Shown here in pieces: positions 14,932 through 16,558 of a stretch of 64,000 nucleotides of DNA. Origin of the DNA: Candidatus Magnetomicrobium cryptolimnococcus (lineage in GTDB: Bacteria > Nitrospirota > Thermodesulfovibrionia > Thermodesulfovibrionales > Magnetobacteriaceae). How positions within the stretch are numbered: the stretch's first letter is position 1; each line of letters begins with the position of its first letter. The translations under genes and the position numbers were made by a program. The DNA lies in the NCBI GenBank assembly GCA_018606805.1, contig JAGYWI010000005.1, positions 62,001 to 126,000 on the forward strand. Direction: 5' to 3'. The notes beneath the pieces are model-generated. The model had not been told where the DNA came from. It saw nothing but the letters and a program-made list of their open reading frames with translations, and did not search any database.

Positions 14932-15159
14932 ATGAAAACCGTTAAAGTAAAATTCTCTAAGGGAAGTTTAGAGCTTATAGAAAAAGCGAATATCCCCGAA
15001 GATATTGAGTTTACAATAGAGGTACCAGAGTCTGAAGAGGAAGCAATAGATAAGTGGCATATCCATTTTGTTTCTGAAGAAGAGCAACAAGAAATTGAAG
15101 AATTATTAAAAAATCTTGATTGTCATATAGTGGCTTACGAAGAAACTGTTGAAATATGA
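14932..15159 (+). CDS. Antitoxin-like protein of a RelE/ParE-type pair
   Basis: This 75-residue, strongly acidic protein (ESEEEAIDKWHIHF in the middle) begins MKTVKVKFSKGSLELIEKA. A strong AAGGAGA site precedes the ATG and its stop overlaps the toxin start by 4 bp (ATGA). It has no recognised DNA-binding motif; the antitoxin call rests on size, charge and coupling to the toxin gene. Confidence 0.6.
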   Translation: MKTVKVKFSKGSLELIEKANIPEDIEFTIEVPESEEEAIDKWHIHFVSEEEQQEIEELLKNLDCHIVAYEETVEI

Positions 15160-15437
15160 AAATAGATATTAAATATTCTGATAATGCGATTAAATTCCTC
15201 AATAATAATAAGTCTATTCTACCCATAGAAAAGCTAAGGTATATAGTTATTTCAGCAGTTAAAAAACTTCTTAAGATTGAAGATAGCAATATAAATTTAA
15301 AGTGCTTAAAAGGAAAATTTAAAGGATATTATAGAATAAGAACAAGAAAAATACGAATTATTTTTAGTCTTAAAGAAAATACAATACTCATTGTCTTTGT
15401 TCACAAAATAGGCTATAGAAATGATATTTATAAATAA
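15156..15437 (+). CDS. RelE/ParE-superfamily toxin
   Basis: This 93-residue basic protein has the superfamily pattern: an N-terminal strand (MKIDIKYSDNAIKFL), LKGKFKGYYRIRTRKIRIIF in the core, and a C-terminal strand ending HKIGYRNDIYK. The core resembles the conserved L-x-G-x-x-x-x-x-R-x-R-x-x-x-RI-x-F signature of mRNA interferase or gyrase-targeting toxins; the target cannot be decided. Unlike the pseudogene at 8192-8444, the frame is intact. It is directly coupled to the acidic gene upstream. Confidence 0.75.
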   Translation: MKIDIKYSDNAIKFLNNNKSILPIEKLRYIVISAVKKLLKIEDSNINLKCLKGKFKGYYRIRTRKIRIIFSLKENTILIVFVHKIGYRNDIYK

Positions 15438-15595: not shown

Positions 15596-15623
15596 TTGAC
15601 ATAATTAATAGCATTTTTATAAT
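15596..15623 (+). promoter_or_regulatory. Sigma-70 type promoter for the DUF4198 gene
   Basis: A perfect -35 TTGACA (15596-15601) and a perfect -10 TATAAT (15618-15623) are separated by 16 bp. Transcription should start near 15630, leaving a leader of about 150 nt before the ATG at 15779. No other gene lies in between. Confidence 0.75.
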
Positions 15624-15651
15624 CTTAACTGATAAATAATTATTTTACTTA

Positions 15652-15745
15652 GTACTCATTTGTGAGTACATACCTGCCATGAAGGCTCAAGCCATGAAGG
15701 CTATTGGAGATTAAATAGTTAAGTTCCAAAAACCTTTGGTTTTTG
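15652..15745 (+). promoter_or_regulatory. Structured 5' leader of the DUF4198 gene
   Basis: The leader contains, in order, a 7-bp hairpin GTACTCA/TGAGTAC with loop TTTG (15652-15669), two identical 12-nt units GCCATGAAGGCT at 15676-15687 and 15691-15702 that can each form a GCC/GGC mini-hairpin with loop ATGAA, and an 8-bp hairpin CAAAAACC/GGTTTTTG (15727-15745). A T-rich run follows about 10 nt later, ahead of the GGAGG site. The layout suggests an RNA switch or attenuator. It matches no riboswitch class I can recognise by eye. Confidence 0.45.
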
Positions 15746-15778
15746 AGCATATTATTTTTTTACATGGAGGCTTGTATA

Positions 15779-16558
15779 ATGAAAAGCAAGTTTTTTATTG
15801 CTATTACATTAATGGTAGTGTTATGTTTTTTTACAGAATGGGCCTATGCACATTTTTTAGGGCTAATTCCCTCTGATGATATTATTGAACAAGGCGAGTC
15901 AAAAAATGTAATAATAAAGGCAAGTTTTTTCCATCCATTTGAGTGGGCATTTATGAATATGGAAAAACCGGAAACAGTTGGCGTTGTTATTAATAGGGAA
16001 AAACAAAATCTGTTGGATAAATTAAAAGAGCAAACCGTAAATAACAAAAAGACATGGCAGATTGATTATACAATAAAGTCACCGGGTAACTATATATTCT
16101 ACTTGGAACCAAAACCATACTGGGAGGCTGCCGAAGAGACATTTATAGTGCATTATGCAAAGGTCATTATAAATGCCTATGGTCTTGATAGTGATTGGAA
16201 TAAGGAATTGGGTTTAAAGGGTGAAATTGTACCATTAACGAGACCATATGGGCTTTGGAGTGGTAATGTGTTTCAAGGGATTGTTAAGAAAAACGGTACC
16301 CCTTTACCTTATACAAAGGTAGAGGTGGAATTTTACAACGAAAAACAAAGTATAAAGGCACCAACAGGCTCACACGTTACACAGGAAATTCAATCTGACC
16401 AAAACGGCGTCTTTACGTATGCAATGCCATTGGCCGGCTGGTGGGGATTTGCTGCACTTTTTGAAGATGATAAACAACTTTCTCATAACGGGAAGGAATA
16501 TCCTGTTGAAATTGGGGCAGTGCTTTGGGTAAAGACCGTTAATTATGAAATAAAATAA
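15779..16558 (+). CDS. DUF4198 periplasmic protein (nickel/cobalt-uptake associated type)
   Basis: This 259-residue protein has a signal peptide (residues 1-24, EWAYA) so that the mature chain would begin with His (HFLGLIPSDD), a pattern shared with NikK/NikM-associated DUF4198 proteins and with Cu-binding periplasmic proteins. The body is two beta-sandwich-like halves: residues 25-130, and 150-255 with GTPLPYTKVEVEF and the terminal GAVLWVKTVNYEIK. The start is chosen at the ATG with GGAGG 8 nt upstream, rather than an in-frame TTG at 15743. It stands alone, without a visible transporter, behind a canonical promoter and long leader. Metal binding is a family-based inference. Confidence 0.75.
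   Translation: MKSKFFIAITLMVVLCFFTEWAYAHFLGLIPSDDIIEQGESKNVIIKASFFHPFEWAFMNMEKPETVGVVINREKQNLLDKLKEQTVNNKKTWQIDYTIKSPGNYIFYLEPKPYWEAAEETFIVHYAKVIINAYGLDSDWNKELGLKGEIVPLTRPYGLWSGNVFQGIVKKNGTPLPYTKVEVEFYNEKQSIKAPTGSHVTQEIQSDQNGVFTYAMPLAGWWGFAALFEDDKQLSHNGKEYPVEIGAVLWVKTVNYEIK

Follow-up and report, generated by a model that had tools for sequence, protein, structure and literature searches.

The window analysed here is a 64,000-nt stretch of the genome of Candidatus Magnetomicrobium cryptolimnococcus (contig JAGYWI010000005.1, positions 62,001 to 126,000), in which a DUF4198 gene, encoding a putative exported part of a Ni/Co uptake system, lies behind a long structured leader. An initial annotation had described a perfect TTGACA/TATAAT promoter, a 7-bp hairpin, twin units 15 nt apart, an 8-bp hairpin, a T-rich run and a Shine-Dalgarno sequence ahead of a DUF4198 gene; each of these was found at its place, and the gene assignment was borne out by Pfam. 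Judging from the position of the promoter, transcription would start at about 15630. Just upstream, at 14932-15437 on the + strand, two small adjoining genes have a toxin-antitoxin-like arrangement, and neither matches Pfam at 0.001. The features of the leader are as follows.

15596..15623, + strand: sigma-70 type promoter TTGACA-16-TATAAT, consensus match 12/12
15652..15669, + strand: upstream 7-bp hairpin GTACTCA-TTTG-TGAGTAC, from sequence and fold, local to the window leader
15674..15702, + strand: conserved dual-hairpin element, matched by the models R1 (35.2 bits) and R2 (33.5 bits)
15676..15686, + strand: P1 mini-hairpin GCC-AUGAA-GGC, from sequence and covariance model match
15690..15702, + strand: P2 mini-hairpin AGCC-AUGAA-GGCU, from sequence and covariance model match
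15685..15748, + strand: alternative long stem that abolishes P1 and P2, terminator-like but imperfect, from the minimum-energy structure
15727..15745, + strand: 8-bp hairpin CAAAAACC-TTT-GGTTTTTG, a local competitor fold, from sequence
15749-15761, + strand: T-rich run downstream of the 8-bp hairpin, a U-rich tail in the RNA
15766..15770, + strand: Shine-Dalgarno sequence GGAGG
15779..16558, + strand: DUF4198 gene (PF10670, Pfam E 1.1e-54), start codon ATG at 15779

The twin units are two identical copies of GCCATGAAGGCT at 15676-15687 and 15691-15702, offset by 15 nt. This exact 12-nt repeat at 15-nt spacing is the single instance in the window and appeared in 1/20 Markov simulations, so that by itself it is only mildly unusual. 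What places the element beyond chance is its conservation, as seen in its covariance score and in its recurrence in other genera and before a cbiM gene of the same genome. The unit GCCAYGAAGGC, together with a second small hairpin, is present upstream of DUF4198 orthologues in the leaders of other genera, and a covariance model (R1) was built from an alignment of 17 such leaders, the window copy included. The window copy scores 35.2 bits with R1, an E of about 1e-6 for the window, being itself among the 17 training sequences. The twin mini-hairpins are one copy of a conserved RNA family larger than had been noted, with the consensus loop AYGAA in P1 and AYGAA or AGNA in P2, both nearly invariant; the 7-bp hairpin at 15652-15669 lies outside the conserved model. 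Relatives share the loops and differ in their P2 stems, and the sameness of the two units in the window is a local coincidence.

P2 covaries strongly. Pair counting in the 17-leader alignment gave 21 two-sided changed cells versus 8.1 in shuffles. In an alignment of 121 matches, which was fitted to the model and holds related sequences, a few of them false, the count was 131 versus 29, and the covariation score was 0.394 versus 0.156 in shuffled and at most 0.103 in slid alignments. Over the same 121 copies, 99.3% of the P2 cells formed pairs, and each of the four P2 pairs showed two-sided changes; the third pair of P1 (3-13) had a GC/CG exchange mainly in TonB-receptor leaders, where P1 stays outside the terminator. 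The twin units are thus conserved, with covariation, in the leaders of orthologues, which supports the original suggestion of a ligand- or protein-binding RNA with two tandem loops.

R1 matched 55/176 genomes of the order (E <= 0.003), often with several copies per genome, and a second model (R2) matched 60/396 genomes sampled phylum-wide, 50 of them belonging to the order, another 8 to its class and 2 to neither; the last two look like chance coding matches. Among the model matches, three were judged false, one in the window's own genome (C80:98394) that sits inside a protein-coding gene, one in a lysine-rich repeat coding sequence (L152), and one at L153. The window genome carries a second copy on a different contig, 50 nt before a cbiM-nikL-cbiQ operon; the fetched upstream flank of its other cbiM gene (C62:28121-28750, L057) is without the RNA element. 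DUF4198 orthologues occur in 36/176 genomes of the order, usually flanked by an outer-membrane protein gene on one side and cbiM on the other. None of the 18 further genomes in the window's family has one, which made a comparison with near-relative leaders impossible, and a search with the whole leader as DNA across the order returned chance matches only (L028, L029 and L032 inspected). Nine of the genomes with DUF4198 lack NikR and gave no motif match; by eye, two loci among them (L013 and L044) hold the motif or a diverged copy.

A terminator that includes the P1 or P2 arm was found in 92/121 copies, compared with a mean of 1.2 and a maximum of 5 when the downstream sequence was shuffled. 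In 89 of these 92, the terminator stem is made of the P1 arm, loop included, and an arm further downstream that leads into a U-run; the other 3 use the P2 arm instead. Among the TonB-receptor leaders missed by that test, most form their terminator from the 3′ arm of P2 (GGCCGUGG...CCACGGCUUUUUUU). Since the terminator takes its 5′ arm from one of the hairpins, hairpins and terminator are mutually exclusive, and the terminator always costs one hairpin. The terminator fold is favoured, with a median of −26.2 kcal/mol versus −16.0 kcal/mol with P1 enforced, and read-through would therefore need some factor that holds the hairpins. In five TonB-receptor leaders (L131:624-760, L105, L110, L132 and L175), the terminator is followed by a second dual hairpin, GACUC-AUGAA-GAGUC and then CUCUC-UGAA-GGGAG, which suggests two switches in series.

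The window leader has its own version of this competition. Its long stem draws on the P1 3′ arm, the linker and the P2 arm, with GCUCAA (15685-15690), GCCA (15691-15694) and AAGG (15697-15700) pairing with CCUU (15733-15736), UGGU (15737-15740) and UUGAGC (15743-15748). The calculated energies are −39.7 kcal/mol for the long stem versus −37.1 kcal/mol with P1 and P2 enforced, a gap of 2.6 kcal/mol, and the terminator tail is broken (AUAUUAUUUUUUU). In the minimum-energy fold, the Shine-Dalgarno sequence pairs with CCU.CCAUG, which lies on the 5′ side of P1 (15673-15681). It was hidden equally in only 21/300 shuffled leaders, the hiding in the window being stronger than in 93% of shuffles, and in the energy model enforcing P1 and P2 freed it only partly. 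A translational control step in the window leader is only suggested by these modelled folds.

The genes directly behind the RNA element fall mainly into TonB-dependent receptors (20), CbiM (18), OprB-like porins that precede DUF4198-cbiM (14), Phenol_MetA_deg-type outer-membrane proteins (10), methyltransferases (9), DUF4198 (5) and TonB (5), with smaller groups of NicO-like permeases (4; the NicO label was assigned by eye, Pfam giving DsbD_2), ExbB (2), FmdE (1) and Peripla_BP_2 (1). Taken together, these genes look like a nickel/cobalt acquisition set, in which FmdE, the methyltransferase and Phenol_MetA_deg are without nickel specificity. At one locus (L111:703-5113), the methyltransferase comes first after the RNA element, with a TonB receptor and an SBP_bac_5 protein next in line; the latter resembles NikA and related peptide/metal binders at scores below the equivalog cut-offs, making this a possible metallophore or metal-chelate uptake operon. 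A methyltransferase also stands directly after the RNA element in L104, L093 and L181. Elsewhere, an FmdE-type protein that carries a DksA/TraR zinc finger and has no assigned metal-uptake role comes right after it (L097:4752-5327). A genuine cobalamin riboswitch (61.9 bits; L129:4138-4360) is located some 3.5 kb downstream from the motif copy before cbiM and is distinct from it, so that B12 and the dual-hairpin element are separate controls within one locus.

The distribution of the nickel repressor family points to the signal. Scored as NikR_C (PF08753) among the 176 genomes of the order, NikR was present in 36 and the motif in 55, with an overlap of 0 versus 11.3 expected (Fisher p 3e-7); among 85 genera, NikR occurred in 26 and the motif in 28, again with an overlap of 0 (p 3e-6), values that overstate independence, the genomes being related and families differing as blocks, with far fewer effective independent events. 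The window genome has no NikR. In all five genomes that hold both NikR and DUF4198 (G025, G032, G050, G055 and G101), nikR lies <=1.3 kb from the DUF4198 gene, and the motif was not found at their DUF4198 loci. This adjacency is a stronger argument than the genome counts, which are weakened because the NikR and motif blocks follow families. The RNA element and NikR appear to fill one regulatory seat, the RNA taking NikR's place. As the motif and NikR are mutually exclusive, the signal is probably nickel. The initial annotation had proposed Ni, Co or Cu from the gene family; Ni/Co is upheld by the uptake genes downstream, with the NikR exclusion pointing to nickel, and copper gained no support.

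Computation showed the element to be conserved and covarying, to form mutually exclusive stems, to be associated with a set of genes and to occur only in genomes without NikR. On this basis we propose, with a probability of roughly 0.7, that it is a conserved cis-regulatory RNA acting as an antiterminator-type switch of genes for the uptake of Ni/Co, most likely of nickel, and ON when the hairpins are held. The RNA would alternate between the P1 and P2 mini-hairpins and a longer, terminator-ended stem that consumes one or both. Unaided, the longer stem would be favoured and expression would be off, while a factor recognising the two conserved loops would hold P1 and P2 and block the longer stem, so that the genes would be on when the metal is scarce. 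In most relatives the choice would be one between transcription termination and read-through; in the window, with its weaker terminator-like stem and masked ribosome-binding site, control may be partly translational. That the hairpins represent the ON state is our reading of the modelled folds. If the metal itself held the hairpins, its binding would turn uptake on, and a trans-acting antiterminator protein that works while metal-free is therefore the likelier factor.

The same consideration bears on the possibility, which we hold to be tentative, of a true riboswitch with no protein involved, in which Ni2+/Co2+ or a small metal-related ligand would be bound by the hairpins themselves, perhaps through a loop-loop contact of the kind seen in guanidine-II. 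Two tiny hairpins with conserved, nearly invariant loops resemble guanidine-II/mini-ykkC, and the analysis identified neither a partner protein nor a ligand for the hairpins; however, with the hairpins as the ON state in terminator-type copies, the metal would activate uptake, the opposite of NikR, and the stems are very small. Somewhat more doubtful still is its strongest form, a new metalloriboswitch class in which a dual mini-hairpin RNA of 30 nt would itself sense nickel (or cobalt) and would have taken over from NikR across several families of one order. Were the partner a protein, ANTAR proteins, which are known to read dual hairpins (PMC3369931, PMC8934654), would share the same logic of two tandem mini-hairpins with one overlapping a terminator, but the ANTAR domain occurs in 7/176 genomes, in 2/55 motif genomes and in none of the window genome's proteins, uncorrelated with the motif, and the loops AYGAA/AGNA are not hexaloops with A1 and G4; the genome distribution rules these proteins out as the partner, leaving this reading very improbable. 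CsrA was discarded as a partner on loop sequence only, GGA being missing from the mini-hairpin loops.

Two further readings were weighed. The 15-nt spacing preserves the reading frame, and the in-frame ATGs could begin a leader peptide, MKAQAMKAIGD, of 11 codons followed by the stop TAA (15679-15711); yet the P1 loop is ACGAA in 81/115 relatives, where the ATG is lost, and covariation lies in the stems rather than in codons, so that this mini-ORF was dropped as highly implausible. That the copies are ordinary intrinsic terminators with self-complementary arms and no regulation would fit the presence of a terminator in most of them, but their location in uptake-gene leaders, the non-random choice of target genes, the independent covariation of P2 within the terminator loop and the conservation of both hairpin loops make this very unlikely. 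For the window copy alone, the imperfect terminator tail and a gene standing alone, away from cbiM, would suit a decaying remnant of a functional family, an improbable outcome given that both its loops and both its stems are intact, its promoter is perfect and its two states differ by only 2.6 kcal/mol. We retain the antiterminator-type switch as the preferred reading.

The initial annotation recognised no known riboswitch class in the leader, and Rfam 15 likewise yielded no gathering-level match at the motif, in the window or at motif-bearing loci, guanidine-II and NiCo included. The cobalamin riboswitch model (RF00174) did not match at the motif, and weak opposite-strand matches to AaHKsRNA22 and SSRC34_2, far below gathering, were dismissed. 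The element resembles the ANTAR targets (eut, nas and ami) in its tandem mini-hairpins, conserved loops and exclusivity with an intrinsic terminator. ANTAR targets are defined by hexanucleotide loops with A at position 1 and G at position 4 (PMC3369931), whereas here two mini-hairpins with terminator overlap carry a pentaloop AYGAA or a tetraloop AGNA, and nearly all motif genomes, the window genome among them, encode no ANTAR domain. Guanidine-II, formerly thought to be protein-binding (PMC2864571, PMC5486947), likewise consists of a pair of small, similar stem-loops whose short loops (ACGR) are conserved, and these two hairpins themselves form the aptamer (PMC5486947); the RNA described here differs in its loop sequences and genes and has no Rfam match. 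The NiCo (czcD) riboswitch precedes efflux genes and is switched on by metal (PMC7689651), and is similarly a termination-based leader RNA of Ni/Co transport genes, but it has another fold, and the dual-hairpin RNA precedes uptake genes and fails the NiCo model. A description of the motif was not found in the open literature searched. With a covarying leader structure, functionally related genes and an alternative terminator, it has the general attributes of an attenuator, and by every test available here it is a new, apparently undescribed cis-regulatory RNA family within that known kind.

Sister genera carry nikR, which encodes a DNA-binding protein, beside the same DUF4198-cbiM uptake operon, and here the RNA element occupies its place; Ni/Co uptake in these lineages thus seems to be under the control of an RNA, in place of the NikR of sister genera. 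This RNA is tiny and abundant, has no Rfam entry and follows a dual-hairpin logic common to ANTAR targets and guanidine-II. Its associations suggest that DUF4198, several TonB receptors and a methyltransferase family take part in acquiring Ni/Co, and the regulon offers a ready start in the search for either a new metalloregulator that binds RNA or a novel metal riboswitch.
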